From Flavobacterium alkalisoli (GTDB taxonomy: Bacteria; Bacteroidota; Bacteroidia; Flavobacteriales; Flavobacteriaceae), in assembly GCF_008000935.1 (NCBI RefSeq), contig NZ_CP042831.1:3410001-3474000 (forward strand): a stretch of 64,000 nt of DNA. Direction: 5' to 3'. The notes beneath the pieces are model-generated. The model was not told the DNA's origin. It saw only the letters and a program-made list of their open reading frames with translations, and searched no databases. The translations under genes and the position numbers were made by a program. Below are positions 39,797 through 56,533 of this stretch, piece after piece (within the stretch, counting starts at the first letter, position 1; every line of letters starts with the position of its first letter).

Positions 39797-42178
39797 ATGA
39801 ACACTTTTAAACAAAGGTGCCTCCCGGCATTCTTTCTATTGTTCTTTACAGCTGTTGCCTTTTCTCAGGAAAAGTTTACCCTAAGTGGTACAATATCAGA
39901 CAACAGCAGTAATGAAACTCTCATCGGAGCAAACGTTTACATTAAGGAAACCGAAACCGTAGCCGCTACAAACCAGTACGGATTTTTTTCCATCTCGCTT
40001 CCGGCAGGAACCTACACGGTAGAGATAAGCTATGTAAGCTTTGGCACGATTACCGAAACCATTACCCTTAACCAAAATGTAAGGAAAAATTTTCAACTCT
40101 CTTCATCCAGTGAAGAGTTGCAGGAGGTAGTTATTACTGCTAATCAGCAAAAAGCAAACATCCGCACACCAGAGATGAGCGTTAATAAACTATCGGTGCA
40201 GGAAATTAAAAAAATGCCTGTAGTAATGGGTGAGGTCGATGTACTTAAATCCATCCTTACACTTCCCGGGGTTACCAATGCGGGAGAAGGAGCTTCAGGT
40301 TTTAACGTACGCGGTGGTGCTGCCGATCAAAACCTTATCCTCTTGGATGAGGCTACCATATTCAACTCCTCTCACCTTTTCGGTTTCTTCTCAGTTTTTA
40401 ATGCCGACGCTATTAAGGACCTTAAGCTTTATAAAGGCGGTATCCCGGCACGATATGGCGGACGTTTATCTTCAGTACTTGACATTTACCAGAAAGAGGG
40501 TAACAGCAACGAATTTCACATGACAGGAGGTATTGGTGCCATTTCAAGCCGAATTCTGGCTGAAGGCCCTATAGTAAAAGAAAGAGGTTCATTCCTTATA
40601 GGAGGCCGCGCTTCTTATGCACACCTTTTCATGAAACTGGCAGGAGAAGAAAACAGCGCCTATTTTTATGACCTTAATACTAAACTAAGCTACAAGCTTA
40701 ACGATAACAACAACCTTTACTTATCGGGGTATTTTGGGCGTGACTTATTAGAAATAAGCGACAGCTTTAATAACATATATGGTAACGCAGTGGTAAACCT
40801 TCGCTGGAACCACCTTTTCAGCGAGAAGCTGTTTGCTAACATGTCTTTAATCTATAGCGATTACTACTATGGTTTGGAGCTTGATTTTGTTGGTCTAAAC
40901 TGGGATTCGGGTATTAAAAACTACAACTTCAAGTACGACCTTAAACATTACCTGTCAGATAAATTCAAATTAAACTACGGGCTTAATACTATCTATTATG
41001 ACTTTAATCCCGGTACAATTGAACCAAGCGGTGAAGACTCTGATATAAACCCTGACCAGCTGGATAAAAAATATGCTTTTGAACCTGCTATATATATAGA
41101 TGCAGAACAACAGCTTACAGAAAACCTTACCGTTAGCTATGGTCTTCGTTACAGTATGTTCTACAGGCTTGGTGCTCAGGATATGAATATTTATGCCAAC
41201 AATCAGGCTGTTGTTTTTAACGACGATTTAAAAATCTATGAAAAAGCCACTCCTATAGATACTAAACATTATGGCAGCGGTGATGTTATAGCCGACTTCA
41301 ATAATCTTGAACCTCGTGTAGGTATCGCTTATAAATTAAACGATGAGCAGTCGGTTAAGGCATCCTATAACAGGATGGCACAATACCTTCACCTTATAAC
41401 CAATACCTCATCACCTACTCCGTTAGATGTTTGGGCTCCAAGTGATGATTACTTAAAACCGCAAACACTTGACCAGTATGCTGTAGGATACTTCAGAAAC
41501 TTTAAAGACGCTGCTTACAGCCTTGAAACAGAAGTATACTATAAAAAGATAAAAAACAGGCTTGACTATATTGACGGAGCCAACCTTATTGCAAACGATG
41601 CTATCGAACAGGTTGTACTACCGGGTAAGGCAAGATCTTACGGACTTGAAGTATTGTTTAGAAAAAATACAGGTAAGCTAACAGGATGGATATCTTACAC
41701 TTTATCCCGTACTGAACAGCAAACACCGGGCAGAACTCCAAATGAGCTGGGAATTAATAATGGCGACTGGTATTTTGCCGGATATGACAAGACACACAAC
41801 CTTTCTGTTACCGGAAGTTATGAACTTAACCCTAAATGGTCGTTTGGTGCGATATTCGCCCTACAGTCGGGTCAGGCAGTAACCTACCCTAACGGATATT
41901 ACCAGTACGGAGATGTTGTAGTACCTAGTTTTGGCGCAAGAAACATGGACAGAAACCCTGCTTACCATCACCTGGATGTATCGGCAACTTACACTCCTAA
42001 ACCTGAAAAGAAAAAAGGATGGCAGGGAGAATGGGTATTTAGTATTTATAACCTTTACAATAGGATGAATGCAGCTTCTATCACGTTCAGGCAAAATGAA
42101 GATACAGGAGCCAATGAGGCTGTAAGGCTTTCTATTTTTGGTGTTATACCAAGTGTTACGTATAACTTTAAATTTTAA
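39797..42178 (+). CDS. TonB-dependent outer-membrane receptor with CarboxypepD_reg N-terminus
   Basis: 793 residues from the ATG at 39797, which begins a signal peptide (LPAFFLLFFTAVAFSQ); an in-frame extension to 39641 is unlikely. Domain order: CarboxypepD_reg-like sandwich (about 25-105, LSGTISDNSSNETLIGANV), TonB plug (about 125-225, GFNVRGGAADQNLILLDEA and GGIPARYGGRLSSVLDI), then a barrel ending in the aromatic strand VTYNFKF. It takes up a large substrate through the outer membrane using TonB energy. It is followed after 9 bases by two DUF4249 lipoproteins, a common Bacteroidota arrangement. The substrate is unknown. Confidence 0.92.
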   Translation: MNTFKQRCLPAFFLLFFTAVAFSQEKFTLSGTISDNSSNETLIGANVYIKETETVAATNQYGFFSISLPAGTYTVEISYVSFGTITETITLNQNVRKNFQLSSSSEELQEVVITANQQKANIRTPEMSVNKLSVQEIKKMPVVMGEVDVLKSILTLPGVTNAGEGASGFNVRGGAADQNLILLDEATIFNSSHLFGFFSVFNADAIKDLKLYKGGIPARYGGRLSSVLDIYQKEGNSNEFHMTGGIGAISSRILAEGPIVKERGSFLIGGRASYAHLFMKLAGEENSAYFYDLNTKLSYKLNDNNNLYLSGYFGRDLLEISDSFNNIYGNAVVNLRWNHLFSEKLFANMSLIYSDYYYGLELDFVGLNWDSGIKNYNFKYDLKHYLSDKFKLNYGLNTIYYDFNPGTIEPSGEDSDINPDQLDKKYAFEPAIYIDAEQQLTENLTVSYGLRYSMFYRLGAQDMNIYANNQAVVFNDDLKIYEKATPIDTKHYGSGDVIADFNNLEPRVGIAYKLNDEQSVKASYNRMAQYLHLITNTSSPTPLDVWAPSDDYLKPQTLDQYAVGYFRNFKDAAYSLETEVYYKKIKNRLDYIDGANLIANDAIEQVVLPGKARSYGLEVLFRKNTGKLTGWISYTLSRTEQQTPGRTPNELGINNGDWYFAGYDKTHNLSVTGSYELNPKWSFGAIFALQSGQAVTYPNGYYQYGDVVVPSFGARNMDRNPAYHHLDVSATYTPKPEKKKGWQGEWVFSIYNLYNRMNAASITFRQNEDTGANEAVRLSIFGVIPSVTYNFKF

Positions 42179-42187
42179 GGAATCGTC

Positions 42188-43012
42188 ATGAAAAATATAA
42201 AATTCATATTAGCAATAGTAACCATAGCCTTCTTCACTAGCTGTGAAGAGGTAGTTGATGTAGATCTTGAAACTGCACCACCACGCCTTGTTGTTGATGC
42301 TTCTCTTGACTGGGTTAAGGGTACCGATGGTAGCGAACAAACTATAAGACTAACCACTACAGCAGGATATTATGAGCCTGAAGTACCTGTTGTATCAGGT
42401 GCTACGGTATTTGTAACCAATTCAGCAGGAACAATATTCGATTTTGTTGAAAATCCGGGTACAGGACTTTATAACTGTATTAATTTTGAGCCTGTAATTG
42501 GTGAGAATTATATACTTACAGTAATTTCAGGGGGACAAACCTTTAAAGCTACAGAAACACTTTATGCCTGCCCTGATATTACTGAGATTGTACAGAACAA
42601 CGAAGGAGGTTTTCTTGGTGACGCAGTGGAGGTACGATTCTTTTTCCAGGATAACGGAGAGGAAGACAACTGGTACCTGAGCCGTTTTGATGCTCCGGTT
42701 ATTCCCTACCCTGACTATGATGCCATAGAAGACCGTTTTAATCAGGGGAATGAAATATTTAACTTTTTTAGTGATGAAGATCTGGAACCGGGTCAGGTTG
42801 TAAATATAAGTCTTCATAGTAGCTCTGAAAGGTATTATAACTATATGAGACAGCTAATCGAAATTGCCGAAGGGGGTGCGGGTAGTGGTCCGTTTCAGGT
42901 ACCGCCGTCTACTGTAAGAGGTAATTTGGTTAATCAAAATGATATTAATAATTATGCTTTGGGGTACTTTCGTGTAACTCAGGCTGTAAAAACTGATTAC
43001 ACCATTCAATAA
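42188..43012 (+). CDS. DUF4249 family lipoprotein (first of tandem pair)
   Basis: 274 residues. Signal peptide with lipobox FTSC (Cys18 or so), so probably an outer-membrane lipoprotein. Beta-rich mature part: EEVVDVDLETAPPRLVVDAS, RLTTTAGYYEPEVPVVSGA, then C-terminal TVRGNLVNQND and NYALGYFRV. DUF4249 proteins commonly follow TonB receptors and probably bind or present the ligand, by analogy with SusD-type partners; that is inference. It is clearly paralogous to the next gene. Confidence 0.88.
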   Translation: MKNIKFILAIVTIAFFTSCEEVVDVDLETAPPRLVVDASLDWVKGTDGSEQTIRLTTTAGYYEPEVPVVSGATVFVTNSAGTIFDFVENPGTGLYNCINFEPVIGENYILTVISGGQTFKATETLYACPDITEIVQNNEGGFLGDAVEVRFFFQDNGEEDNWYLSRFDAPVIPYPDYDAIEDRFNQGNEIFNFFSDEDLEPGQVVNISLHSSSERYYNYMRQLIEIAEGGAGSGPFQVPPSTVRGNLVNQNDINNYALGYFRVTQAVKTDYTIQ

Positions 43013-43054
43013 TAGCATAGTTTTTGCGTTAGTTTTTTCAGCAAACCTTTCTGA

Positions 43055-43876
43055 ATGAGAAAACTATACACTTTATTACTCGTCTTCACAAGCCTGTTTT
43101 TTACAGCTTGTGAAGACGTTGTTGATTTAGACCTGCCCACAGCTCCTCCCCGATTGGTTGTAGAAGCCTCTTTTAACTGGATGAAAACATTTACCGGACA
43201 TTATCAGGAAGTGCGCTTAACCACAACAGCAGGATTTTATGATACAGAGGTTCCTAAAGTTAGCGGAGCTACCGTATATGTTACCAACAGCAAAAATGAT
43301 GTCTTTGAATTCAGTGAAGATAAATCTGGGTTTCAGGGTATATACGCGTGCATTAATTTTAATCCTGAAATTGGAGAAACATACACTTTGTTTATAGAAC
43401 TTAACGGGGAAACATTTACGGCTACCGAAACACTGATGCCCGTTCCTCAGCTTGAGGAAGTGATTCTAACTAATGAAGGTTTTGACCCTAACGATATGTC
43501 CTTAAAAGCTTACTTTCAGGACCCTCCCGAAACCAACTACTATCTCAGGGAAATAGGCCGTGAAGGATACAGCGGCGGCGTGGCTATTTTTGATGATCGT
43601 TTTGTAAACGGTAACTATACTTATACCATAACCATATTTGATGACCTGAAACCGGGAGACGAAATTACAACTTTCCTTTACGGAATTTCTTCAAGACACT
43701 TTGATTATATGTCTAAGATATTAAGTATTGTAGACGAAGAAAATGTTACTAATCCGTTTAGAACACCTTCAATAAATGTTAGGGGCAATATTGTAAACCA
43801 AACAAATCCTGACAATTATGCCCTTGGCTATTTCAGACTTAGCGAGGGTTCTTATATAACATATACCGTAGAATAG
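43055..43876 (+). CDS. DUF4249 family lipoprotein (second of tandem pair)
   Basis: 273 residues with lipobox FTAC and the same layout as its neighbour: EDVVDLDLPTAPPRLVVEAS, RLTTTAGFYDTEVPKVSGA, NVRGNIVNQTN and NYALGYFRL. The ends are strongly conserved between the two copies while the middle (about residues 125-215) has diverged, as expected of an old duplication whose surface has specialised. 42 bases separate the copies, so they probably share the receptor transcript. Confidence 0.88.
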   Translation: MRKLYTLLLVFTSLFFTACEDVVDLDLPTAPPRLVVEASFNWMKTFTGHYQEVRLTTTAGFYDTEVPKVSGATVYVTNSKNDVFEFSEDKSGFQGIYACINFNPEIGETYTLFIELNGETFTATETLMPVPQLEEVILTNEGFDPNDMSLKAYFQDPPETNYYLREIGREGYSGGVAIFDDRFVNGNYTYTITIFDDLKPGDEITTFLYGISSRHFDYMSKILSIVDEENVTNPFRTPSINVRGNIVNQTNPDNYALGYFRLSEGSYITYTVE

Positions 43877-43895
43877 CATTATACTGTAAAGTTTG

Positions 43896-43903
43896 TATTT
43901 TTG
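43896..43903 (+). promoter_or_regulatory. -7 promoter box for thiamine pyrophosphokinase
   Basis: TATTTTTG, 17 bases before the ATG at 43921. Confidence 0.6.
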
Positions 43904-43920
43904 CAGCCTAAATTAAAAGT

Positions 43921-44583
43921 ATGTCATCACACCATATTGTAAGGGACGACCAGGAACCGGCTTTAATTATTGCTAACGGCGCTGCCTGCTCACGAGAGTT
44001 AACAGATCAGTTGCTGGAATGGTCTCCACTTGTAATTGTACTGGATAATGCCATAGAACGCGTTATGGAACTTGGCATTAAGATAGATGTGCTTTTAGGT
44101 GATTTTGATGGCGGTCTTGATATAGAAAAATACAAAGACCTACAGTATCCGCTTGAGGTTGTTTACAGTCCGGATCAGGAAAAGACCGATCTTGAAAAAG
44201 CCTTTGATTACCTTATTGAGCGTAAAATACCTGCTGTAAATGTAATTTGGGCTACCGGTAAACGTGCCGATCATACCATTACCAACATTACCAATATAGT
44301 ACGCTACCGTAACCTCATCAAAATAGTTATACTGGACGACCATTCTAAAATTTTCCTGTTACACCAAAAGTTTGAGAAATGGTATCCTGCCAACACCCCT
44401 ATCTCATTAATTCCTATAGGTAAAGTATCGGGTATAAGTACACAAAACCTAAAGTACCCTCTAACTGACGAGGAACTAACTATAGGCTACCGTACAGGCA
44501 GCAGCAATACTACCGTAAATGATGGTATTGTAACCATAGAATATAAGAAAGGTGACCTGCTTATGATGGAGTGTTTTGATTAA
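43921..44583 (+). CDS. thiN: Thiamine pyrophosphokinase
   Basis: 220 residues. Transfers pyrophosphate from ATP to thiamine. Catalytic-domain motifs: ALIIANGAACS, DVLLGDFDGGL (the metal-binding Asp cluster), DQEKTDLEKAFDYL and GKRADHTITNI. The C-terminal beta domain contains LIPIGKVSGISTQNLKYPL and RTGSSNTTVNDG, the thiamine-binding half. No riboswitch is seen upstream. Confidence 0.9.
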   Translation: MSSHHIVRDDQEPALIIANGAACSRELTDQLLEWSPLVIVLDNAIERVMELGIKIDVLLGDFDGGLDIEKYKDLQYPLEVVYSPDQEKTDLEKAFDYLIERKIPAVNVIWATGKRADHTITNITNIVRYRNLIKIVILDDHSKIFLLHQKFEKWYPANTPISLIPIGKVSGISTQNLKYPLTDEELTIGYRTGSSNTTVNDGIVTIEYKKGDLLMMECFD

Positions 44584-44673
44584 TTTCATGTAGCTTGTTG
44601 ATACGTTAATTTGTTTATTTGATTACCCCAAACCGAATAACCATATAAACAAATAACCAAAAATCTATTTCAC

Positions 44674-44681
44674 TATCTTTG
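44674..44681 (+). promoter_or_regulatory. -7 promoter box for uvrB
   Basis: TATCTTTG. A possible GTG start at 44681 shares its last base, so the ATG at 44702 is used. Confidence 0.6.
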
Positions 44682-44701
44682 TGGAAAGCAAGGAAAAAGA
44701 A

Positions 44702-46690
44702 ATGAAATTCAAGGTAGTATCAGACTATAAGCCTATGGGCGATCAGCCCGAAGCAATAAAACAACTCAGTAACGGATTAAAATCGGGGGAACGTTTTCAA
44801 ACTCTGTTAGGGGTTACCGGTTCGGGTAAAACTTTTACCATGGCAAACGTTGTGGAAGAGGTACAAAAACCTACCCTTGTACTGGCACATAACAAAACGC
44901 TGGCGGCACAGCTGTATAGCGAGTTTAAGCAGTTTTTCCCTAACAATGCGGTTGAATACTTTGTGTCTTACTACGACTACTACCAACCCGAAGCTTATAT
45001 ACCCGTAACGGGAACATATATAGAAAAAGACCTTTCCATAAACGAGGAACTGGAAAAAATGCGTTTAAGCACTACCTCTTCCCTACTTTCGGGAAGGCGC
45101 GACGTACTTGTGGTTGCTTCGGTTTCCTGCCTGTATGGTATAGGTAACCCTGTTGAGTTTCAAAAGAACGTAATCTCTATAGAGCGCGATCAGGTTATAT
45201 CAAGAACTAAACTTTTACACAGGTTGGTACAGAGCCTTTATTCCCGTACCGAAGCTGAATTTACCCCAGGTACTTTCCGTATTAAGGGGGATACGGTAGA
45301 GATTTTCCCTAGTTATGCTGATGATCCTTTCCGAGTACATTTCTTTGGGGATGAGATTGAAGAAATTGAAGCTTTTGATGCCAAAACAGCTCTTGTAATA
45401 GAAAAATACGACCGTCTTAATATTTATCCTGCCAATATGTTTGTAACCTCTCCCGACGTGCTTCAGGGTGCTATATGGGAAATACAGCAGGATTTGGTAA
45501 AACAGGTAGATTACTTTAAGGAAATAGGCAAGCACCTAGAAGCTAAACGCCTTGAGGAGCGTACCAATTTTGACCTTGAGATGATTCGTGAACTTGGTTA
45601 CTGTTCAGGTATCGAGAACTATTCCCGTTATCTTGACCGAAGGTTACCGGGCACAAGGCCTTTCTGCCTTCTGGATTATTTCCCTGATGATTTTCTTATG
45701 GTGATTGACGAAAGCCACGTAACGGTTTCTCAGGTACACGCCATGTATGGTGGTGACCGTTCCCGTAAAGAAAATCTTGTGGAATACGGCTTTAGGCTGC
45801 CTGCGGCGATGGATAACCGTCCGCTTAAGTTTGAGGAGTTTGAAGCGCTGCAAAATCAGGTAGTCTATGTAAGTGCCACTCCTGCCGATTATGAGCTTCA
45901 AAAAAGTGGCGGTGTATATGTGGAACAGGTTATACGTCCTACTGGGCTATTAGACCCTATAATTGAAGTTCGCCCAAGCCTTAACCAAATAGACGATCTT
46001 ATAGAAGAGATACAACAACGTGTAGAGGCCGACGAACGCGTACTGGTTACTACACTAACCAAACGTATGGCCGAAGAACTTGCCAAATACCTGACCAAGG
46101 TATCTATTCGATGCCGTTATATCCACTCGGAAGTGGATACACTGGAGCGTGTGGAGATCATGCAGGATTTACGTAAAGGCCTGTTTGATGTACTTATTGG
46201 GGTTAACCTTTTAAGGGAAGGGCTTGACCTGCCGGAAGTATCGCTTGTGGCTATACTGGATGCCGATAAGGAGGGCTTTTTAAGAAGTACGCGTTCACTG
46301 GTACAAACTGTAGGGCGTGCTGCCCGTAACGTAAACGGTAAGGCAATTATGTATGCTGATAAGATAACCGACAGTATGCAACGTACCATAGATGAAACCA
46401 ACTACCGCCGCGAAAAGCAAATGAACTTTAATACGGCACACGGACTGGAACCTAAAGCGCTTAATAAGAAAATTGAAAGTTCGCTTACCAAGAGCCCTAT
46501 CTCGTCATACCATTATGACAATACTCCTAAAATGGCTGCCGAGCCTGATACCACTTATATGGCTAAAGGCGAAATTGAAAAGATTATACGTGAAAAACGT
46601 AAGGCTATGGAAAAAGCCGCTAAAGATCTTGACTTTATGCAGGCTGCCAAGCTAAGGGATGAAATTAAGGTATTGCAGGAGAAGATATAA
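44702..46690 (+). CDS. uvrB: Excinuclease ABC subunit B
   Basis: 662 residues, the normal length. DNA-damage verification helicase of nucleotide excision repair, working with UvrA and UvrC. Walker A GVTGSGKTFT, the beta-hairpin region YYDYYQPEAYIP, helicase motif DESHVTVSQ, SATPADYE, LVTTLTKRMAEELA, GVNLLREGLDLPEVSL, QTVGRAARN and a C-terminal UVR motif (FMQAAKLRDEIKVLQ). Composition is normal for the window, in contrast to the gene that follows. Confidence 0.98.
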   Translation: MKFKVVSDYKPMGDQPEAIKQLSNGLKSGERFQTLLGVTGSGKTFTMANVVEEVQKPTLVLAHNKTLAAQLYSEFKQFFPNNAVEYFVSYYDYYQPEAYIPVTGTYIEKDLSINEELEKMRLSTTSSLLSGRRDVLVVASVSCLYGIGNPVEFQKNVISIERDQVISRTKLLHRLVQSLYSRTEAEFTPGTFRIKGDTVEIFPSYADDPFRVHFFGDEIEEIEAFDAKTALVIEKYDRLNIYPANMFVTSPDVLQGAIWEIQQDLVKQVDYFKEIGKHLEAKRLEERTNFDLEMIRELGYCSGIENYSRYLDRRLPGTRPFCLLDYFPDDFLMVIDESHVTVSQVHAMYGGDRSRKENLVEYGFRLPAAMDNRPLKFEEFEALQNQVVYVSATPADYELQKSGGVYVEQVIRPTGLLDPIIEVRPSLNQIDDLIEEIQQRVEADERVLVTTLTKRMAEELAKYLTKVSIRCRYIHSEVDTLERVEIMQDLRKGLFDVLIGVNLLREGLDLPEVSLVAILDADKEGFLRSTRSLVQTVGRAARNVNGKAIMYADKITDSMQRTIDETNYRREKQMNFNTAHGLEPKALNKKIESSLTKSPISSYHYDNTPKMAAEPDTTYMAKGEIEKIIREKRKAMEKAAKDLDFMQAAKLRDEIKVLQEKI

Positions 46691-46708
46691 GTATTTTTTG
46701 TATTTTGT

Positions 46709-46722
46709 GATAATAATCACCT
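46709..46722 (+). promoter_or_regulatory. Dyad upstream of the ATPase-methyltransferase locus
   Basis: GTGAT and ATCAC arms separated by 4 bases, centred 20 bases before the ATG at 46736. T-rich near-matches to the -7 box lie at 46694-46709 (TATTTTTTG and TATTTTG), none exact. It could be an operator or a weak leader hairpin. Confidence 0.3.
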
Positions 46723-46735
46723 TACAAAAAATAAC

Positions 46736-47275
46736 ATGAGAATAAAAGAATTACATTTAGATAATAAAGATGTTGAACAGTTCGGTTTAAAGGATTTTAA
46801 ATCTTCGAAATTTAGCTCTGTAATTGCTTTAGTTGGTAAAAACGGATCGGGTAAATCGCGATATCTAAAAGCCATTGAAAATAAGATAAAAAATTACGAT
46901 ATAACATCTGAATTAAATAAAAAATTTGATTATTTATCAAGTGATTTAGATGAAATACAAAGTCATTACACTAATCATTATAATGTTTATTTAGCTTATC
47001 AAGAGCTACAAGAAGCAAAAAAAAGTAAAAATGTTACTAAAATAAGTGATAAAGCAAATCTTTTTACGATTGCATGTAATAAATTGCCTCGGGGATTAAG
47101 ACCTACAGAAAAAACAATTAGTGAAAGAATCGATAAAATAAACAAAGAAATCACTCAACATCTGAAAATAATAAATCCCTCTGATTTAAGACGGCTTCAA
47201 AAAAGTTTTGATAATACAAACAAAAAAAAAGTTTTATTTCAAGATATAATTGACTCAGTAATTGAGATAGGATAA
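46736..47275 (+). CDS. ATPase-methyltransferase locus, N-terminal part with Walker A
   Basis: 179 residues. Starts like an ABC/RecF/SMC-type AAA ATPase: a short strand (RIKELHLDNKDV), FKSSKFSSVIALVGKNGSGKS with Walker A at 34-41, then a lysine-rich helical region (about 45-178) likely to be a coiled-coil arm. It lacks Walker B and the signature motif; both are in the next reading frame segment, which is in the same frame after one TAA (47273-47275). It is very AT-rich (a sampled stretch 46981-47040 has 14 G+C of 60). Either a split ATPase subunit or the 5' end of a gene with a nonsense mutation. Confidence 0.75.
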   Translation: MRIKELHLDNKDVEQFGLKDFKSSKFSSVIALVGKNGSGKSRYLKAIENKIKNYDITSELNKKFDYLSSDLDEIQSHYTNHYNVYLAYQELQEAKKSKNVTKISDKANLFTIACNKLPRGLRPTEKTISERIDKINKEITQHLKIINPSDLRRLQKSFDNTNKKKVLFQDIIDSVIEIG

Positions 47276-47290
47276 ATCAATGAATTCCAA
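47273..47290 (+). other. In-frame stop junction of the ATPase-methyltransferase locus
   Basis: TAA at 47273-47275 is followed by five sense codons in the same frame (Ile, Asn, Glu, Phe, Gln) and then the ATG at 47291. Without the TAA the locus reads as one chain of about 655 codons. Confidence 0.85.
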
Positions 47291-48703
47291 ATGATTAATG
47301 AAAGTTCTTTGACCTTTCTAGAAAAGCTTCCACATAGACTTGTATTGGATAAACTTGAATGTCAGGGAGACGAAAAAAAATTTAAAAGCCGTGTATCCTA
47401 TAAAAGATTTACATTATTAAAAGATCTTATCAAAGAATTTTTGGGAAAAGAAATTCTTTGGCACTATAAAAATTCTGATATAGATGAGCACGATGACCAT
47501 GTTTCTATAAAAGCTAGAGGATATTGGACTATAAATAATCGAACTTTCAACTATCAAGACTTTTCAGATGGGGAGAAGGTTCTTTTTTCATATGCCATAT
47601 TATTATTCCTACTGAATCTTAATCCAAAAATTAAATTTAAAGAATCAATAATCATAATTGATGAGCCTGAACTTAACCTACATCCAAAAGCTCAAATAAA
47701 ATTAATCCAAAGTTTAGAAAATTTAGTTAAAGAAAGAGGTCAACTTATTATTGCTACCCATTCATTATCTATTATTGCTACCTTAGATTATGGTTCAATT
47801 TTCTTGGTAAAAGATGATGAGTTATTAACTCCATCATCTTCTGTTCCTTTCAATGCAGTTGATGAATTAATGGGTTTTGAAGAACATTATAATAAGATTG
47901 TGGAATTTCTAGTTTCAACACCTTCTTGGGCAATGACAAATTTTATGGCTCAATGTTTTAAAGACCCAGAAGTATTTGAATCAGCAAATAAAAATGATCC
48001 TCAATTAGATGTTTTTAAACAACTAATTTTAAAAAAGAAAGAATTAAGGATTTTGGATTTTGGTTCTGGTTTAGGAAGACTATTAAAATGTATTAAAGAA
48101 GACAACGAAACTTGGAGTAGAATAAAAAATTATGATTGTTTTGATATTAATAAGGATTATAATCAAACTGTACTTGAACAAGGAGCTAACGCCATTTTTA
48201 ATGAAATAGATAATGTCCCTAAAAATTTCTATGATATTATTGTTTTAGTTAATGTATTACATGAGATACATATTCAATATTGGGAGGATACTTTAAATAA
48301 ATTAAAATTAGCCTTAAGCTCAAATGGTCATTTAGTCATTATTGAAGACTTTGAGTTACCTATAGGTGAGTTACCTAATGATTTAGGATTTCTTCTTTTG
48401 GAAAAAGATGAACTTAAAATTTTACTTGGCAAGAATGTCACTTTCATATCTCCAAATAATGATCGTTATAAAAATCGCATAATTGGCAGTATAATTTCAT
48501 CTGAAAACATGAATACAATAGACAAAAAGCTCATAATCAAAACTATGGAAAGTTTGAAAGAAAATGCTTTAAATGCTATTCAAGACTACAGAAATATGCA
48601 AGAAAAAAAACTTAACATAGGAAGACTGTATGCTTTAAAATCAAACTCTTATGTTAATAGCCAATTAGCTATAAATTATTTAAATGAGCAAAAATCAGGC
48701 TAA
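47291..48703 (+). CDS. ATPase-methyltransferase locus, C-terminal part: ATPase signature/Walker B plus SAM methyltransferase
   Basis: 470 residues. The first half completes an ABC-type ATPase: signature FSDGEK (91-96), Walker B IIIIDEPELNLHP (120-132) and H-loop ATHS (155-158), the pattern of AAA_15/AAA_21 and OLD-like proteins. From about 250 a class I methyltransferase domain follows: motif I ILDFGSGLGR (254-263), acidic residue in YDCFDINKD, and YDIIVLVNVLHEI (314-326). The C-terminal 90 residues are helical and unassigned. No Toprim, HNH or other nuclease domain is visible. The ATPase cannot bind ATP without the Walker A in the upstream segment. AT-rich (18 G+C of 60 at 47641-47700). Function unknown; genome defence is a hypothesis. 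Confidence 0.75.
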   Translation: MINESSLTFLEKLPHRLVLDKLECQGDEKKFKSRVSYKRFTLLKDLIKEFLGKEILWHYKNSDIDEHDDHVSIKARGYWTINNRTFNYQDFSDGEKVLFSYAILLFLLNLNPKIKFKESIIIIDEPELNLHPKAQIKLIQSLENLVKERGQLIIATHSLSIIATLDYGSIFLVKDDELLTPSSSVPFNAVDELMGFEEHYNKIVEFLVSTPSWAMTNFMAQCFKDPEVFESANKNDPQLDVFKQLILKKKELRILDFGSGLGRLLKCIKEDNETWSRIKNYDCFDINKDYNQTVLEQGANAIFNEIDNVPKNFYDIIVLVNVLHEIHIQYWEDTLNKLKLALSSNGHLVIIEDFELPIGELPNDLGFLLLEKDELKILLGKNVTFISPNNDRYKNRIIGSIISSENMNTIDKKLIIKTMESLKENALNAIQDYRNMQEKKLNIGRLYALKSNSYVNSQLAINYLNEQKSG

Positions 48704-48758
48704 TCATATTCCTTTTAAAAATCAAAAAAATCCCTATATTTATGTGTTGTAACACAGG

Positions 48759-50651
48759 ATGAGGATGAAAAAACTTTACAGCTTACTCTTTGCGCTAATT
48801 ATCTTTACATTATCGCAAAACATTTATGCCCAAAAAGACAGCATTGCAAAAGCAACTGATTCTGTTAATGCGGTTACCCTTGAGGCATATAATATTAAGC
48901 TGGCTCAAATTGAGCAGCAGCGTTTAAAAGACTCCATTAAGAAGTCTGAACTGGAACAACAGCTGCAATCTCTTAAAACTACCGACAACCTTAAGAAAGA
49001 AGAACTCCAAAAGGAACTGGAAGAGCTTGAAAACCGTGAAGCGACCAGGCTTGCTGCTAAAAGGGAACAGATAGACAAACTGCGTTCTAAAATAAAAGGC
49101 AGTCCGGTTAGGGGCTTTTTTAACGATACCCTGTTCAATATTTACAGTAAGTTGGGCAGCTTCTCCGCTGCCGAAAGGGCTCAGGCCATAACAAGGCGCA
49201 TAGAAGAACTTGGCGACAATATACTGTTTGAACCCGATTCACTAAAAACATCAAACAACGAAACAACAGCCGATTTAGTTTACCACGACAGGATAATTGT
49301 AAGTGTATCTGAAAATGATGCCATTTGGAACAATACCTCAAAAGAGCTGCTTGCAAAAACATATCAGAAGATTATTACTGATGAGATTACTGCCTATAAA
49401 AATGAAACCAGTTTCAAGACTCTCGCTAAAGAAGTTGCATTGGCACTTTTGGTTATAGGCTTACTGGTACTCTTAATATACCTTTCAGGAAAACTATTCC
49501 ACTGGACTGCTGAAAAAATAAAACAGCAGAAAGACAAAAGGATACATGGTATTAAAATTAAATCCTACGAGCTTTTTGATGCCGACAGGCAGGTTAACCT
49601 TCTGCTATTGGTAAATAAACTGGTTAAGTGGCTGTTTATATTATTACTTATTTACATAGCCTTACCTGTATTATTTGGTATTTTCCCTTGGACACAAAAC
49701 TTTGCCGAAACGTTATTTGGTTATATACTAAGTCCGGTTAAAAAAGTTGCTTTCGGCTTATGGGGTTACCTCCCTAACCTTATTACAATTATTGTACTGA
49801 TAATCATATTCAGGTACATCCTTAAATTTGCGCGATTCCTTAAAAATGAGATTGCAAGAGGCAACCTGCATATAGATGGTTTTTACCCCGACTGGGCTAA
49901 CCCTACTTACCAGATTGTTCGTGTACTTATACTCGCATTCTTACTGATAGTTATTTTCCCTTACTTACCGGGAAGCGACTCTGCCGTATTTAAAGGCGTA
50001 TCGGTTTTCTTAGGATTTCTTTTCACTTTTGGGTCTATGGGCTCGTTGTCTAATATCATAGCAGGAATCGTACTTACCTATATGCGTCTGTTCAAGATTA
50101 ACGACCGCGTAAAAATTGGTGATGTCGTGGGCGATGTTATAGAGAAATCGCTGCTGGTAACACGTATACGTACCACTAAAAATGAAATTATATCCATACC
50201 AAACTCTACGGTTATGAGCAGCCATACTATTAATTACAGTAGCGACACCGTGAGCAATGGCCTTATATTACACACTACGGTAACCATTGGGTATGATGTA
50301 CCGTGGAAAGACATACAACAGGCACTTATTGAAGCTGCCGACAGGACGGAATTCCTGCTTAAAGACCCTAAGCCTTTTGTACTGCAAACCAGCCTTGAGG
50401 ACTTTTATGTAGCCTACCAGATTAATGCCTATACCAAGGAAGCCAACAAACAGGCGGGTATATATAGCGAACTTCATAAAAATATACAGGATTGCTGTAA
50501 TGAAATGGGAATAGAAATATTATCTCCTCATTACAGGGCTGCACGCGACGGTAATATGACCACTATTCCGGCAGATTATCTGGATAAGGACTATAAAGCA
50601 CCTTCGTTTAATGTGAAAATGGATAAAGACAACAACGAACCTAAAGCATAA
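48759..50651 (+). CDS. MscS-type mechanosensitive channel, large form with exported N-terminus
   Basis: 630 residues. A signal peptide (LYSLLFALIIFTLSQNIYAQ) leads into a long charged coiled coil (about 45-115) and a periplasmic domain. Four or more membrane helices follow (about 223-420), then the MscS pore and beta domain (SNIIAGIVLTYMRLFKINDRVKIGD, TTKNEIISIPNSTVMSS). The extended N-terminus recalls MscK/YnaI-like channels. It opens under membrane tension to release solutes. ATGs at 48759 and 48765 are both possible. The partner channel starts 6 bases later. Confidence 0.88.
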   Translation: MRMKKLYSLLFALIIFTLSQNIYAQKDSIAKATDSVNAVTLEAYNIKLAQIEQQRLKDSIKKSELEQQLQSLKTTDNLKKEELQKELEELENREATRLAAKREQIDKLRSKIKGSPVRGFFNDTLFNIYSKLGSFSAAERAQAITRRIEELGDNILFEPDSLKTSNNETTADLVYHDRIIVSVSENDAIWNNTSKELLAKTYQKIITDEITAYKNETSFKTLAKEVALALLVIGLLVLLIYLSGKLFHWTAEKIKQQKDKRIHGIKIKSYELFDADRQVNLLLLVNKLVKWLFILLLIYIALPVLFGIFPWTQNFAETLFGYILSPVKKVAFGLWGYLPNLITIIVLIIIFRYILKFARFLKNEIARGNLHIDGFYPDWANPTYQIVRVLILAFLLIVIFPYLPGSDSAVFKGVSVFLGFLFTFGSMGSLSNIIAGIVLTYMRLFKINDRVKIGDVVGDVIEKSLLVTRIRTTKNEIISIPNSTVMSSHTINYSSDTVSNGLILHTTVTIGYDVPWKDIQQALIEAADRTEFLLKDPKPFVLQTSLEDFYVAYQINAYTKEANKQAGIYSELHKNIQDCCNEMGIEILSPHYRAARDGNMTTIPADYLDKDYKAPSFNVKMDKDNNEPKA

Positions 50652-50657
50652 TACACC

Positions 50658-51485
50658 ATGTGGGAACAAATTAAAGAGTTGCTTAATGAAACGCTTATAA
50701 CCATTGGCAAAACCCAGTTAAAAGTAAGCTCTGTTATTACACTTATCCTGTTTTGGGTAGTGGTAACCTTTATTTTAAAAATAATTAAAAAGAGTATTTA
50801 CCGTATACACAGTTTTGATGATGCTAAAAAGTACTCCATTTTTACATTGGTTAAATACATACTGCTGGTAATTGCTGTAGTATTATCAATGGAAATAGTA
50901 GGCTTTAACCTTTCGGTACTGCTGGCCGGATCCGCTGCCTTATTAGTAGGTTTAGGTTTAGGTATCCAAAATCTGTTTAGCGATTACATATCGGGTATAG
51001 TAATATTGGTAGACTCCGCAGTAAAAATGGGAGATGTTATAGAGGTTAATAACATTGTAGGAACGGTAGAGGAAATAAGATTAAGAACCACCACAGTACT
51101 TACCCGTGACGATAAGTATATTATTATACCTAACTCAGACCTTACCCGTAACGAACTTATTAACTGGACACATAACGCGTTAGCTTCCCGTTTTGAGGTA
51201 ACTGTGGGTGTAGATTACTCATCGGATGTTGAACTGGTAACAAACCTTTTAAAAGAAGCTGCTGCCGAAGAACCGGGAGTACTACAAAAACCCGCTCCGT
51301 TTGTACGTTTCAATAATTTTGGAGATTCATCGTTGGACTTCTCGGTTTACTTTTGGGTAGAAGACGTATTTAGAGTAGAAAATGCCAAAAGCCAGATGCG
51401 CTACCGCATTTTAGATAAATTCAGGAAGAATGGAGTTTCAATACCATTCCCGCAAAGAGTGCTGCATACAGCGACTGGAAATTAA
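50658..51485 (+). CDS. MscS-type mechanosensitive channel, small form
   Basis: 275 residues. Three membrane helices (about 20-42, 62-82 and 88-110) lead to the Gly/Ala-rich pore helix LAGSAALLVGLGLGIQNLF, then the beta domain (DVIEVNNIVGTVEEIRLRTT, IIIPNSDL) and the C-terminal vestibule (FGDSSLDFSVYFWV). This is the E. coli MscS size. Tandem with the large channel, so probably co-expressed; hetero-oligomers are unlikely given the size difference. Overlaps the convergent TerB-like gene by 4 bases. Confidence 0.92.
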   Translation: MWEQIKELLNETLITIGKTQLKVSSVITLILFWVVVTFILKIIKKSIYRIHSFDDAKKYSIFTLVKYILLVIAVVLSMEIVGFNLSVLLAGSAALLVGLGLGIQNLFSDYISGIVILVDSAVKMGDVIEVNNIVGTVEEIRLRTTTVLTRDDKYIIIPNSDLTRNELINWTHNALASRFEVTVGVDYSSDVELVTNLLKEAAAEEPGVLQKPAPFVRFNNFGDSSLDFSVYFWVEDVFRVENAKSQMRYRILDKFRKNGVSIPFPQRVLHTATGN

Positions 51486-51883
51486 TTATGCTGTGCCCTG
51501 AAAAGCGCCAGCAATACATCAGGATCAATAAGTCCGGTTGGAGATTTCTGCATTTCCTGCAACACACTTCTCATGGCAAAAGGACTAAGCCCCATATTAA
51601 CACCCATTTCACGTATGGCAACCTGCTCATTATCATGCAATATACCATCTGCATGCATTAAAAGTGCCAGACGGTAAAACTGTAGTATACGCTGATGTTC
51701 GGATTTAATAACCACCTTTTTAGCCTCATGTACAAAAAGACTTTCAAAAACACTTTTTTCAACCTTAAGCTGAGAAGCTACAATAGTCAGAAACTGGTAT
51801 TCGCGCTCGTGTATCTGCCCGTCTATTCTTGCAAACGCAATCATTTCTGACAATAAGCTTAATTTTTCTTCATATGTGCTCAT
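51482..51883 (-). CDS. TerB-like helical protein
   Basis: 133 residues, all alpha-helical. Two similar halves carry the TerB-like pattern: LLSEMIAFARIDGQIHEREY and LALLMHADGILHDNE, each with an acidic D-G-x-I-H-x-x-E motif that could bind metal. In related genomes such small proteins are sometimes misnamed excinuclease subunit B, for which there is no basis here. Cytosolic. Function not established; no other ter genes are present, so tellurite resistance is not implied. Confidence 0.75.
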   Translation of the reverse strand: MSTYEEKLSLLSEMIAFARIDGQIHEREYQFLTIVASQLKVEKSVFESLFVHEAKKVVIKSEHQRILQFYRLALLMHADGILHDNEQVAIREMGVNMGLSPFAMRSVLQEMQKSPTGLIDPDVLLALFRAQHN

Positions 51884-51934
51884 GAAAGTGGTATTTTTAG
51901 CTAATATATTGTTTTTACTGCAAAACTTTTAATT

Positions 51935-52738
51935 ATGGTTCGCAATTTTTTGTTAATCGTCCTATCTTTATGGTATATGACTGCTAAATCTCAAGAACAT
52001 ACTTCTTCACAAAACGTATCATCATTTACCATACAGGCACCACAACTTGGCGGTGAAAGAAAAATATGGGTATACCTGCCTTTTAATTATAATGAAACCC
52101 ATAAAAAGTTTCCTGTAATATATATGCATGACGGTCAAAACCTGTTTGACAGCTTTACAGCCTTTGCAGGAGAATGGCGCATTGATGAAGTGTTGGACAG
52201 TCTAAAAGCTGAGTCTATAGTAATAGGAATAGAAAACGGAGGCGATAAACGGATTAACGAGCTTACCCCCTACACCAACGAAAAATACGGCGGAGGTGAT
52301 GGTGATAAATACCTTGATTTTTTGGTAAACACCCTTAAGCCTTACGTAGATGAAAATTACCATACACTTACCGACAGGAACAATACAACTATTTTTGGCA
52401 GCTCGCTTGGAGGATTAATATCCTTTTATGCCATACTTAAGTATCCAAAAGTGTTTGGTAAGGCAGGTGTATTCTCCCCTTCATTTTGGTTTAGTGAAGA
52501 TATGTATGACCTTCTACATAATACCGAGACTATAGATGCCAGGATATATTTTATGGCCGGTGACCATGAAAGCAGCGAAACCATTACCGATTTAGAGCGA
52601 ATGGAAGAACTGGTAAAGTATAAGATAAAGGACAAAAAACAGTTTCTTAAAAAGGTTGTACACAACGGCAGGCATAATGAAACGCTTTGGACTAACGAGT
52701 TTAAAGAAGCTTATTTATGGCTTACTGATAATGATTGA
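51935..52738 (+). CDS. Secreted esterase (alpha/beta hydrolase, esterase D-like)
   Basis: 267 residues. Signal peptide at the N-terminus (FLLIVLSLWYMTAKSQ). Alpha/beta-hydrolase core of the putative-esterase family: RKIWVYLPFNYNETHKKFPV, YMHDGQNLFDS, nucleophile elbow FGSSLGG with the catalytic Ser, GVFSPSFWFS and a terminal His in GRHNETLW. Related proteins are siderophore, feruloyl or carbohydrate esterases; the substrate is undetermined. Confidence 0.85.
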   Translation: MVRNFLLIVLSLWYMTAKSQEHTSSQNVSSFTIQAPQLGGERKIWVYLPFNYNETHKKFPVIYMHDGQNLFDSFTAFAGEWRIDEVLDSLKAESIVIGIENGGDKRINELTPYTNEKYGGGDGDKYLDFLVNTLKPYVDENYHTLTDRNNTTIFGSSLGGLISFYAILKYPKVFGKAGVFSPSFWFSEDMYDLLHNTETIDARIYFMAGDHESSETITDLERMEELVKYKIKDKKQFLKKVVHNGRHNETLWTNEFKEAYLWLTDND

Positions 52739-52749
52739 GTGTAAAAAGA

Positions 52750-52779
52750 TTGTTATATCAACACATTGCCATACCTTTG
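52750..52779 (+). promoter_or_regulatory. Promoter of the DUF1456 gene
   Basis: TTG at 52750-52752, a 19-base spacer and TACCTTTG at 52772-52779, one of the best -33/-7 pairs in the window. It ends 13 bases before the ATG. Confidence 0.7.
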
Positions 52780-52792
52780 CAAAAAATAAGAT

Positions 52793-53245
52793 ATGAATAA
52801 TAACGATGTATTTAAAAAATTAAGGGTAGCACTTCAGCTTCGTGATGACCAGATTGTAGAGATTATGGAACTGGTAGACTTTAGGGTATCTAAAGCTGAA
52901 TTGGGAGCTTTTTTCCGTAACGCCGACCATCCAAACTATATGGATTGTGGCGACCAGGTGCTTCGTAATTTTTTAAACGGACTTATTATTCACCTTCGAG
53001 GCACTAAGGAAGAGCCTAAAAACCCACAGGAAGTACTGGCTAAAAACAAAACTGCAGTTAAAAATAATAAAAAGAGTTTCTCTACCACTAAACAGGATAA
53101 ACCGAAGACTGACAGACCTAAAAGCAATAAACCTAAAGCTACTAAAGCAGACGATAAAAAGCCCGCTAAGAACTTTAAGGCTAAAAAACCGGCTCCTGTT
53201 GTTGAGAAGTTTAAGTTTAAATCTGGCAAGAAGTCGGATTCATAA
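52793..53245 (+). CDS. DUF1456 (YehS-like) protein with basic tail
   Basis: 150 residues. The N-terminal 80 contain a DUF1456 repeat: NNDVFKKLRVALQLRDDQI, then VSKAELGAFFRNADHPNY and QVLRNFLNGLIIHLRG. The remaining 70 residues are Lys/Ala/Pro-rich, resembling histone-like or RNA-binding tails. This suggests nucleic-acid contact, but no function is established. Monocistronic. Confidence 0.85.
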   Translation: MNNNDVFKKLRVALQLRDDQIVEIMELVDFRVSKAELGAFFRNADHPNYMDCGDQVLRNFLNGLIIHLRGTKEEPKNPQEVLAKNKTAVKNNKKSFSTTKQDKPKTDRPKSNKPKATKADDKKPAKNFKAKKPAPVVEKFKFKSGKKSDS

Positions 53246-53368
53246 TTCATGCTTTAATTCTGAGTGAGGATTCCGTAATTATTTTCTTTCATTTTATCAA
53301 TCCCGTAAAAGTTTAATAAATATATGTTAAGTAACATTATATTAAACCTTTAAGAGGATATCGTTTTG

Positions 53369-53376
53369 TAAATTTG
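53369..53376 (+). promoter_or_regulatory. -7 promoter box for otsAB
   Basis: TAAATTTG. A possible TTG start at 53374 is inside it, so the ATG at 53434 is used, giving a leader of about 50 bases. Confidence 0.6.
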
Positions 53377-53433
53377 GATGAATCGCCTGCATGGCAGGAC
53401 TTTACTTCCATCAGGCAAAACGCCATCTATATA

Positions 53434-55617
53434 ATGAAAATAATTACTGTATCATACAGGTTGCCTGTATCTATTAAAAGGCAAAAGGAGAATGTAAAAA
53501 TTACACAAAGTGCCGGAGGGCTTGCCACTGCCATACTTTCTTATTCTGAAAAGAGCAAAAAAAACCTTACGTGGGTTGGTGTAGCCGATTTTGACGAAGA
53601 GCTTTGGGAAAACAACAAAGATAACTACGATAGGAACTTTGATATTGAACCCGTTTATCTTGAAAAAAGACTGAACAGGAATTTCTATAATGTATTCAGT
53701 AACTCTGTATTATGGTCATTGTTTCACTATTTCCCTTCATATATAGAGTATAATCACGAAGGATTTGAAGCCTATAAGACAGCTAATGAAATTGTTGCCG
53801 AAAAGGTAAACAGTATTTATAAACCCGGAGATATCGTTTGGATACATGATTACCATTTTATGGGACTGGCCAAAATAATAAGGGAGAAGCATCCTGAGGC
53901 AAAAATTGGCTATTTCCTTCACATACCTTTCCCTAATTTTGAAATATTCAGGGTATTGCCAAACAAAGTAAGGCGCTATCTGCTAGAAGGCGTATTGGGC
54001 AGTAACTTAGTCGGTTTCCATACTTGGGACAATGCCATTCATTTTACAGAATGTGTCGAGAAAATGCTGGGCCATTCACACAAGAATTTTATCTTCAGCC
54101 AGGAAACACACCGCACAAGAGTAGGATCCTTCCCTATCAGTATCGATTTTGATAAGTTCAATGATGCTTATGATAAGCCTGAGGTAATAAAGCTGCGAGA
54201 GGAGATTAAGCACTTATATGAAGACAAAAAAATAATCTTTTCGGTAGATAGATTAGACTATACAAAAGGGATAACCAACAGGCTTAATGCCTTTGAGACC
54301 TTTTTAAAGAATTATCCCGAATGGAAAGAAAAGGTTGTATTTCTGCTGGTTATTGTACCTTCCCGTGAAGAGATTACCAAATACGGAGAGCGTAAAAAAA
54401 TGATTGAACTCAATATAGCCCGCATAAACGGTACCTTGGGTAATTATAAATGGTCGCCTGTGGTGTATCAGTACCAGTCGGTCGATTTTGATAAACTAAT
54501 AGCATTATACACAAGTGCCGATGCAGCTCTTATATCTCCTGTAAGAGACGGAATGAACCTTGTAGCAAAAGAATACATAGCTGCCCGTAAAGATTTAAGG
54601 GGAGCACTCATATTAAGTGTAATGGCAGGTGCAGCAAAAGAACTTCAGGAATCGCTTACTATTAATCCTTTTGATGACGAACAGATTGCCCTTAAGCTGA
54701 ACTACGCCCTTACTATGAGCGAAGAAGAACAGGAACGACGTATAGAAAGAATGCAGCGCTACCTTAAGAAGCATGATGTATTTAGATGGGCTACCGATTT
54801 CCTTAACGAGACTGAGGAAATACACAGTAGAGATACAAAACCTGTAGCCCTGGCTGATGAAACAAAAGAAACAGTTCTTGAAAAATTTGATAAGACCAAA
54901 AAGAGGCTTATTCTTCTGGATTTTGACGGGACTCTTGTAAACCTGCAGCCAAAGCCCGAAATGGCAGTACCTGACGACAAACTTATAAAACTGCTAAACA
55001 CACTGGCAAGCGATGAGAAAAATGACGTATGGATAATTAGCGGCAGAAATCATGAATTTTTAGAAGAATGGTTAGGCAAACTCCCTATTGGACTTGTTGC
55101 AGAACATGGCGGATATATAAAACGTGATAAATGGGAATCTATAATAAATGGTACGCCGGAATGGAAAGGCCGTGTTATTGAGATAATGCATGATTATGTA
55201 GATACTAATGCGGAAAGCTTTGTTGAAATAAAAGAATTTGGCGTTGCATGGCATTACAGGAATGTAGAACAAAGACAGGGTTTCCTAGCTTCGAGGGAAT
55301 TATTATCACTACTTAAAAACCAGCTTTATAACATGCCTACACAAATTATAGACGGTAATAAGGTTATAGAGGTAAAACACTTTTTGGCACACAAAGGTAC
55401 CACCTGTAAAAACAATATCCTAAATCCTGATTATGACTTCGTTCTATCTTTCGGTGATGATAAAACTGACGAAGACCTGTTTGAAATGCTTACCGGAACC
55501 AATGAACATACCGTTAAGGTGGGTCCGGGTAATACGGCCGCTAAATACAGGGTACAATCGGTAGAGGAAGTATTAAGTTTTTTAGGAGAGCTTACACAGT
55601 GTAACGTGTTGAAATAA
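53434..55617 (+). CDS. otsAB: Bifunctional trehalose-6-phosphate synthase/phosphatase
   Basis: 727 residues with two enzymes fused. The N-terminal two-thirds is an OtsA/GT20 glycosyltransferase (VSYRLPVSIKRQKEN, SAGGLATAI, WIHDYHFMGLAKI, GYFLHIPFPNFEIF, FSVDRLDYTKGITNRL, SPVRDGMNLVAKEY). It joins UDP-glucose and glucose-6-phosphate. The C-terminal third is an OtsB HAD phosphatase (LILLDFDGTLVNLQ, ISGRNHEFLEEW, FGDDKTDEDLFE). Together they make trehalose, an osmo- and desiccation protectant. Single-gene operon, close to two MscS channels. Confidence 0.95.
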   Translation: MKIITVSYRLPVSIKRQKENVKITQSAGGLATAILSYSEKSKKNLTWVGVADFDEELWENNKDNYDRNFDIEPVYLEKRLNRNFYNVFSNSVLWSLFHYFPSYIEYNHEGFEAYKTANEIVAEKVNSIYKPGDIVWIHDYHFMGLAKIIREKHPEAKIGYFLHIPFPNFEIFRVLPNKVRRYLLEGVLGSNLVGFHTWDNAIHFTECVEKMLGHSHKNFIFSQETHRTRVGSFPISIDFDKFNDAYDKPEVIKLREEIKHLYEDKKIIFSVDRLDYTKGITNRLNAFETFLKNYPEWKEKVVFLLVIVPSREEITKYGERKKMIELNIARINGTLGNYKWSPVVYQYQSVDFDKLIALYTSADAALISPVRDGMNLVAKEYIAARKDLRGALILSVMAGAAKELQESLTINPFDDEQIALKLNYALTMSEEEQERRIERMQRYLKKHDVFRWATDFLNETEEIHSRDTKPVALADETKETVLEKFDKTKKRLILLDFDGTLVNLQPKPEMAVPDDKLIKLLNTLASDEKNDVWIISGRNHEFLEEWLGKLPIGLVAEHGGYIKRDKWESIINGTPEWKGRVIEIMHDYVDTNAESFVEIKEFGVAWHYRNVEQRQGFLASRELLSLLKNQLYNMPTQIIDGNKVIEVKHFLAHKGTTCKNNILNPDYDFVLSFGDDKTDEDLFEMLTGTNEHTVKVGPGNTAAKYRVQSVEEVLSFLGELTQCNVLK

Positions 55618-55641
55618 ATATAAAAACATATCTTTTTAAAT

Positions 55642-55665
55642 CCCGGCTATACGTCGGGTTTTTTT
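55642..55665 (+). terminator. Terminator of otsAB
   Basis: The CCCGGC / GTCGGG stem (one G-U pair, loop 55648-55652) is followed by seven T, the last of which begins the next promoter's -7 box. Confidence 0.75.
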
Positions 55666-55672
55666 ATATTTG
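55665..55672 (+). promoter_or_regulatory. -7 promoter box for the alpha/beta hydrolase gene
   Basis: TATATTTG, 36 bases before the ATG at 55709, overlapping the T tract of the otsAB terminator. Confidence 0.6.
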
Positions 55673-55708
55673 GGATACCCATCTTTAATAATAATTAATA
55701 CCAGTTTA

Positions 55709-56533
55709 ATGAAAAAACAGTTTTTTCTTTTTCTGTTTGTCCTTACGGCAACTATCAGTAAGGCACAAACGGAGTATGTAACCCAAACAAACATCCAGTA
55801 TTATGATCAGGCAACAAATAAGTCGGACGCTTATATAAATGAGCGTTGTGTACTGGACATCTATTACCCTAAAAATACCAAAAACTTTGCTACGATAGTA
55901 TGGTTTCACGGTGGCGGAATTACACAGGGAAGCAAAGAGATTCCCGAATACCTTAAAAACAAAGGCTTTTGCGTTGTAGGTGTTAACTACAGGCTTAACC
56001 CTAACGTAAAAGCACCTGCTTACATAGAAGACAGTGCTGCTGCGGTAGCCTGGGTGTTTAATAACATCAGTAAATATGGTGGTGATACCTCATCCATATT
56101 CCTTTCAGGGCATTCTGCCGGAGGATACCTTATCAGTATGGTAGGGCTTGATAAAAAATACCTAGCCAAACATAATATAGATGCTAACAGTATTGCGGGG
56201 CTTATACCTTTTAGTGGGCAGTGTATTACTCATTTTACCATAAGACAGGAAAAAGGCATTAAAGATACCCAGCCAATAGTAGACGAATATGCTCCTTTAT
56301 TTCATGTAAGGGCAGATGCGCCTCCCCTTTTACTTATTACCGGCGACAGGGAAATGGAAATGCTGGGCCGTTATGAAGAAAACGCTTATTTGGCCCGTAT
56401 GATGAAAATTGCAGGACATAAAGATACCCGCCTGTATGAACTGGAAGGTTACGGACATAACATGACCGAGCCCGCCTTCCCTCTACTGGTTAAGGAAGTA
56501 AAAAGGATTATGGAACTTAAAAAGAAGAAATAA
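55709..56533 (+). CDS. Secreted alpha/beta hydrolase (esterase/lipase family)
   Basis: 274 residues from the ATG at 55709, which begins a signal peptide (FFLFLFVLTATISKAQ); an in-frame start at 55670 lies in the promoter box. Hydrolase features: IVWFHGGGITQGSKEIP (oxyanion hole HGGG), LSGHSAGGYLIS with the catalytic Ser, a late Asp in LLITGDREMEM and His in YGHNMTEP. This is the HSL-like esterase arrangement; feruloyl or acetyl esterases are related. Substrate unknown. Confidence 0.85.
   Translation: MKKQFFLFLFVLTATISKAQTEYVTQTNIQYYDQATNKSDAYINERCVLDIYYPKNTKNFATIVWFHGGGITQGSKEIPEYLKNKGFCVVGVNYRLNPNVKAPAYIEDSAAAVAWVFNNISKYGGDTSSIFLSGHSAGGYLISMVGLDKKYLAKHNIDANSIAGLIPFSGQCITHFTIRQEKGIKDTQPIVDEYAPLFHVRADAPPLLLITGDREMEMLGRYEENAYLARMMKIAGHKDTRLYELEGYGHNMTEPAFPLLVKEVKRIMELKKKK

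Follow-up and report, generated by a model that had tools for sequence, protein, structure and literature searches.

An ABC ATPase–methyltransferase fusion gene in Flavobacterium alkalisoli: a candidate anti-phage gene interrupted by one stop codon

Results

We analyzed a 64,000-nucleotide stretch of the Flavobacterium alkalisoli genome (contig NZ_CP042831.1, positions 3,410,001 to 3,474,000; hereafter the window). It carries a gene for an ATP-binding cassette (ABC) ATPase fused to a predicted S-adenosylmethionine (SAM) methyltransferase (hereafter the fusion). The gene lies at window positions 46736–48703 on the plus strand, as a single frame with one internal TAA at 47273–47275. Its first part, an open reading frame (ORF) of 179 amino acids (46736–47275, plus strand), encodes the ATPase N-lobe, with the Walker A motif GKNGSGKS and a helical insert, and ends at this in-frame TAA. 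The 475-codon continuation (47276–48703, plus strand), with an ORF from the ATG at 47291, encodes the ATPase C-lobe, a linker, the class I SAM methyltransferase, and C-terminal helices. The C-lobe holds the signature FSDGEK, the Walker B motif IIIIDEPE (IIIIDEPELNLHP), and the H-loop ATHS. The linker, the methyltransferase (with motif I ILDFGSGLGR, and NVLHEI), and the C-terminal helices occupy 47867–48703 (plus strand). The original prediction had placed these motifs correctly, GKNGSGKS in 46736–47275 and the others in 47291–48703. The two segments it described are both present; they are one frame broken by a lone stop codon.

The fusion gene sits in a variable site. It lies between uvrB (ending at 46690) and an mscS-like gene (starting at 48759), both named from sequence, and has a GC content of 25–30%, compared with 35–46% in flanking windows. 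The AT-rich interval between the two genes (46699–48705, no strand assigned) is delimited by alignment to G024, the closest relative identified within the genus (uvrB 96% and mscS 86% identical). The flanks of G024 match the window as far as position 46698 and again from 48706 onward, and between them lies a different ORF of 182 amino acids. In G033, a further relative, the site is occupied by yet other ORFs. The different ORFs at the same site indicate that the site is variable and that the fusion gene was probably acquired. The gene is also rare and patchily distributed: besides its own genome, one of 198 relatives has a match at 1e-20, and at 1e-25 there are matches in none of 396 genomes from the family and in 5 of 394 from the class, in searches limited to a few scored candidates per genome. 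Phage records gave no match to the fusion, and two pattern scans of viral contigs found no relative of it. The uvrB–mscS interval (window 46691–48758, and in G024 and G033) carries differing accessory genes and is a possible integration hotspot. Rfam gave no match within window positions 40000–56000.

Both domains are recognizable by family searches, in which each half of the window protein was scanned apart. The first half matches Pfam ABC_tran at its cut-off (25 bits). The second half matches AAA_21 (PF13304; 63.7 bits, cut-off 27), AAA_15 (PF13175; 50.4 bits, cut-off 32.1), and Methyltransf_23 (43.0 bits, cut-off 27). Walker A, signature, Walker B (DEPE), and H-loop follow one another in OLD/PtuA-like order, with a helical insert, as in the broad ABC ATPase kind; the ATPase is closest to the PtuA/AriA/OLD kind. 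The second domain has a glycine-rich motif I and, in the predicted structure, is modeled as a Rossmann methyltransferase with a predicted local distance difference test (pLDDT) score of 90.1. It is thus predicted to be of the class I SAM type, and to bind SAM and transfer methyl groups. No nuclease family was significant in the Pfam scan of both halves (Mrr_cat_2, E 0.13). The original prediction of an OLD- or AAA_15/21-type ATPase joined to a class I methyltransferase, with no nuclease domain, is therefore borne out.

It had further proposed nucleic-acid modification, which is not supported for DNA, although RNA may be a target. DNA N6/N4 methyltransferases carry a motif IV of the pattern [DNS]PP[YFW]. 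This pattern is absent from the second half of the window protein, from the methyltransferase part (beyond residue 380) of 46 aligned rows, and from 40 rows of a second alignment. Structural matches to class I SAM methyltransferases include GtmA, PfPMT, NTMT1, and bacterial Hen1 (small-molecule, peptide, and RNA methyltransferases), at 9–19% identity in those rows, and many of the nearest folds are small-molecule enzymes. The C-terminal helices of the fusion lie outside the range covered by most of these fold matches.

The fusion represents a real protein family. At E <= 1e-3, 215 proteins match, the ORF of the window included, and 108 of the 120 among the matches listed are 600–720 amino acids long, so that homologues do occur as one protein of about 650 residues. 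Across 46 aligned full-length relatives, 37 residues in both domains are invariant. No characterized housekeeping enzyme turned up among the homologues. Conservation is uneven: the helical insert (residues 55–152) averages 16.3% identity among the 46 relatives, against 57.6% for residues 271–370 and 39.7% for the methyltransferase; among eight close relatives the corresponding values are 27.1%, 80.6%, and 62.4%. Such a fast-changing insert in an otherwise conserved machine would suit an element that senses the trigger.

A scan of a species collection by pattern and tblastn found 41 loci, many of them in metagenome bins. By record title they belong to Bacteroidota, Bacillota, Pseudomonadota, Campylobacterota, Planctomycetota, Spirochaetota, and Myxococcota, with one titled Patescibacteria. 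The invariance of NVLHEI in the 40-row alignment is biased, since one scan pattern itself contained NVLHEI; two relatives found by profile instead (L109:8331-10802 and L110:8838-10856) read NTLHEI, and both carry C-terminal tetratricopeptide repeats. The tree comprises 42 rows. L043 was not picked for it, and L044 and L045 were too short. Of the loci, L095 was left out because it appears to lie on the contig that carries L015, and L098 because the script found no ORF with NVLHEI.

Relatives of the fusion keep company with defense genes. At 21 loci, we compared genes within three positions of the fusion with those six to nine positions away, using PADLOC models at E 1e-20. These loci are mostly from Bacteroidota; the exceptions are L013, titled Patescibacteria, and L097 and L099, which the tree places in a different clade. 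The near set comprised 109 of 110 proteins of at least 100 amino acids (the 1535-amino-acid protein of L007 was omitted). The 109 near proteins matched 145 models and the 84 far proteins matched 6, a contrast that is overstated because the tally counts models rather than proteins and one restriction-modification gene matches many. Clustering with defense genes is seen as an enrichment in models. Restriction-modification genes lie within three genes of the fusion at L006 (type II), L013 (type II/I methyltransferase), L019 (type IIG), L021 (type I methyltransferase), and L015 (type III methyltransferase and a weak type III restriction enzyme match). At L110 an HsdR-like gene lies 14 bases upstream. 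An OLD-Toprim gene and a UvrD gene, Gabija-like, lie immediately downstream at L024; a GajB-like helicase is near the fusion at L026, and L031 has a partial GajB match. At L037, the protein encoded beside the fusion (L037:11000-13816) resembles UvrA, and its C-terminal part scores 300 bits against the MADS ATPase mad3. PDC-S01, PDC-S13, PDC-S26, and DrmMII in the near tally were not traced to a locus.

Outside Bacteroidota, some clades have recurrent partners. An HD or dCTP-deaminase neighbor occurs at 11 of the 41 loci, in three lineages. At L022, L025, L039, and L040 the fusion is followed by an HD protein of about 930 amino acids, a protein of about 270 amino acids (no Pfam match at L025 and L039), and a HerA-type ATPase. 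Profile residues 421–598 of the HD protein match the HD structure 2o6i (E 5e-12) and SAMHD1 (E 1e-10). No PDB entry matches its first ~400 residues in sequence, and their likeness to SIR2 is a judgment by eye only. At L030 and L032 the fusion is accompanied by a small gene and by a different HD protein, which shows only distant similarity (E 5e-8) to the one just described. At L034, L036, L038, L042, and L045 a dCTP-deaminase defense gene lies upstream on the opposite strand. The L042 deaminase scores 530 bits against its PADLOC model, and the other four were assigned by homology; the deaminase is split over two ORFs in L036 and L045, and the L045 fusion match is a fragment. A close relative of the L042-type deaminase occurs, at 1e-60, in one of 185 genomes of the order of L042 besides its own. 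For each partner set, a supported branch of the tree has all the placed members on the same side (L045 is not in the tree). L033, which starts near a contig end, also falls in the deaminase clade. Among Bacteroidota copies no conserved partner or common neighbor cluster was seen, metabolic or other, and the window holds no HD or dCTP-deaminase partner. The single-gene system originally predicted thus fits the Bacteroidota copies and does not fit the clades with conserved partners.

The fusion can be told apart from known systems with which it shares parts. Against the NCBIfam model NF041760 for PtuA (Septu, and type I-A retrons Ec78 and Ec83), the second half scores 53.5 bits, under the cut-off of 500. 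PtuA has PtuB HNH or a reverse transcriptase alongside, whereas the fusion adjoins uvrB and an mscS-like gene, with neither seen, and has its own C-terminal methyltransferase. AriA of PARIS, OLD, and GajA have the same kind of ATPase as the fusion, and AriA gave the top PADLOC score (69.5 bits, to the ATPase C-lobe) among the best 25 of 42 and best 25 of 106 models for the halves. The AriB Toprim/DUF4435 partner or fusion of PARIS is absent from the Pfam matches of the window protein and from the adjacent genes. Where OLD and Gabija GajA have a C-terminal Toprim nuclease, the fusion has Methyltransf_23 and the Rossmann methyltransferase model instead. HD proteins at L025 and L030 score 29–33 bits against the PADLOC dCTP-deaminase/dGTPase models. 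Neighbors of the fusion elsewhere match PDLC02373 and PDLC02374, which represent dCTP-deaminase and dGTPase defense; the fusion itself is neither. PD-lambda-5 is an anti-phage system with a domain its authors labeled “methyltransferase”; the main text of that paper has neither the term “ABC ATPase” nor “AAA ATPase” (PMC9519451). A 2026 paper lists Toprim, HNH, PD-(D/E)XK, and PIN as effectors coupled to OLD/PtuA-type ATPases (PMC12839542).

Two further observations concern other genes. In the window, positions 42188–43876 hold two tandem, similar genes for probable lipoproteins of about 274 amino acids, behind a TonB-type receptor gene (by eye), an arrangement ordinary for Bacteroidota. Elsewhere in the same genome (L002, around G000:C1:3141564-3141947), a gene for a 652-amino-acid ATPase is followed by one for a 285-amino-acid protein in which an HNH-like CxxC...H pattern can be made out by eye; the two may form a second, Septu-like pair of ATPase and nuclease.

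Discussion

We propose, with reasonable confidence, that the fusion is an acquired anti-phage gene in which a PtuA/OLD-type ABC ATPase gates a class I SAM methyltransferase as effector. The domain make-up, the fold match, the conserved ATPase and SAM-motif residues, the variable site, the defense company, and the hypervariable insert are observed; from these we infer sensing, gating, a substrate, and phage protection. The ATPase would assemble on ATP, and its fast-evolving helical insert would recognize an infection cue. Recognition would then gate the methyltransferase, which may methylate a non-DNA target of the host or the phage, for instance a protein, an RNA, or a small molecule from the nucleotide pool or elsewhere. 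Methylation would block phage growth, alone in Bacteroidota and elsewhere alongside HD, dCTP-deaminase, or restriction partners.

Several points weigh against this proposal, besides the inflated neighbor tally. When near proteins were scanned singly, 14 of 20 in a first set and 6 of 10 in a second had no defense match, and the PDC-S01 match at L041 is weak evidence because it represents a widespread AAA_14/DUF4143 ATPase type. L029 lies in the HD-operon clade yet lacks the HD operon, as well as Walker A, and L026 lies in the deaminase clade yet lacks the deaminase. Methyltransferase folds do not tell the substrate. An OLD-family ATPase need not be defensive: one is reported to have a cell-cycle role in an archaeon (abstract of PMC12796447). 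Finally, the window copy carries an internal stop.

Two other functions can be set against defense by the fusion itself. The methyltransferase could be a modification partner, switched by the ATPase, that labels a molecule of the cell itself. Effectors encoded by other genes, such as restriction enzymes, HD proteins, or dCTP deaminase, would then leave the host unharmed or remain inactive. The conserved neighbors elsewhere (HD with the ~270-amino-acid protein and HerA; the small gene with HD; the divergent dCTP deaminase) and their placement in the tree speak for such a role, and it is a real rival for the HD and deaminase units. It leaves the Bacteroidota genes unexplained, as those, the window copy included, have no conserved partner, and the missing DNA-methyltransferase motif IV also argues against it; we consider it unlikely overall. 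Alternatively, the fusion could have nothing to do with defense and simply be carried along in genomic islands, as an ATP-gated methyltransferase that serves metabolism or interactions between bacteria. This would suit the small-molecule enzymes among the nearest folds and the many near proteins without a defense match. However, the closeness of the ATPase to PtuA and AriA, the near/far difference in defense models, the hypervariable insert, and the lack of a shared neighbor cluster in Bacteroidota make a non-defensive role distinctly improbable.

The window copy is most likely a recently inactivated gene, and, as it stands, it yields two ORFs and not one working chain. Stop aside, it has no sign of decay: all columns invariant among relatives are kept, and its identity to eight relatives is 34–44% in the N part and 61–70% in the C part, compared with 33–47% and 63–74% among those relatives (67–68% and 84–87% in the closest trio). 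The TAA aligns beside residue 183–184 of P0003, an intact relative, where a loop (168–184) with pLDDT under 50 ends. A break in a flexible loop, intact motifs on both halves, and halves as diverged from the eight relatives as those are mutually would also suit a functional split, with reinitiation at ATG 47291 and assembly of two chains. Yet a recent nonsense mutation gives an identical signature, most of the listed homologues are 600–720 amino acids long, and no second split at the same site was identified. P0043, P0048, and P0095 break off within the linker or methyltransferase, as decaying genes would, though only P0048 is on a long contig (5.1 Mb); these truncations suggest that inactivation may recur in the family. 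We therefore regard a split as quite unlikely. Intact copies are present in other strains, among them Flavobacterium phragmitis (L005) and Flavobacterium sp. 245 (L008). A sequence or assembly error, with the gene intact, would account for a single defect in 1968 bases and for the preserved invariant columns, but the genome is a single contig with a completeness of 99.8%, and we think this very unlikely.

No model seen in PADLOC 2.0 (2023), NCBIfam 20, or Pfam spans the ATPase and the methyltransferase, and we recognized no ATPase–methyltransferase defense fusion in the literature covered, which excludes a 2020 ABC-ATPase survey (doi 10.1093/nar/gkaa726), the likeliest earlier source. We thus do not claim that the system is undescribed, as originally predicted, and its ATPase is of a known kind. 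It is possible, and we suggest it tentatively, that the fusion represents a new class of defense effector, in which the output of an OLD/PtuA-type sensor ATPase is not cleavage but methylation. The metabolite, RNA, or protein methylated on infection would then be a host resource that the phage can no longer use.

To our knowledge, the effectors coupled to OLD/PtuA-type ATPases in defense are nucleases. If our proposal is right, a fused methyltransferase with a conserved SAM motif, found in defense neighborhoods of several phyla, would add a chemically different output, and the Bacteroidota copies would offer a system of one gene, which lends itself readily to testing. That HD proteins and a dCTP deaminase recur as neighbors makes a substrate in nucleotide metabolism plausible and suggests this as the first field in which to look.
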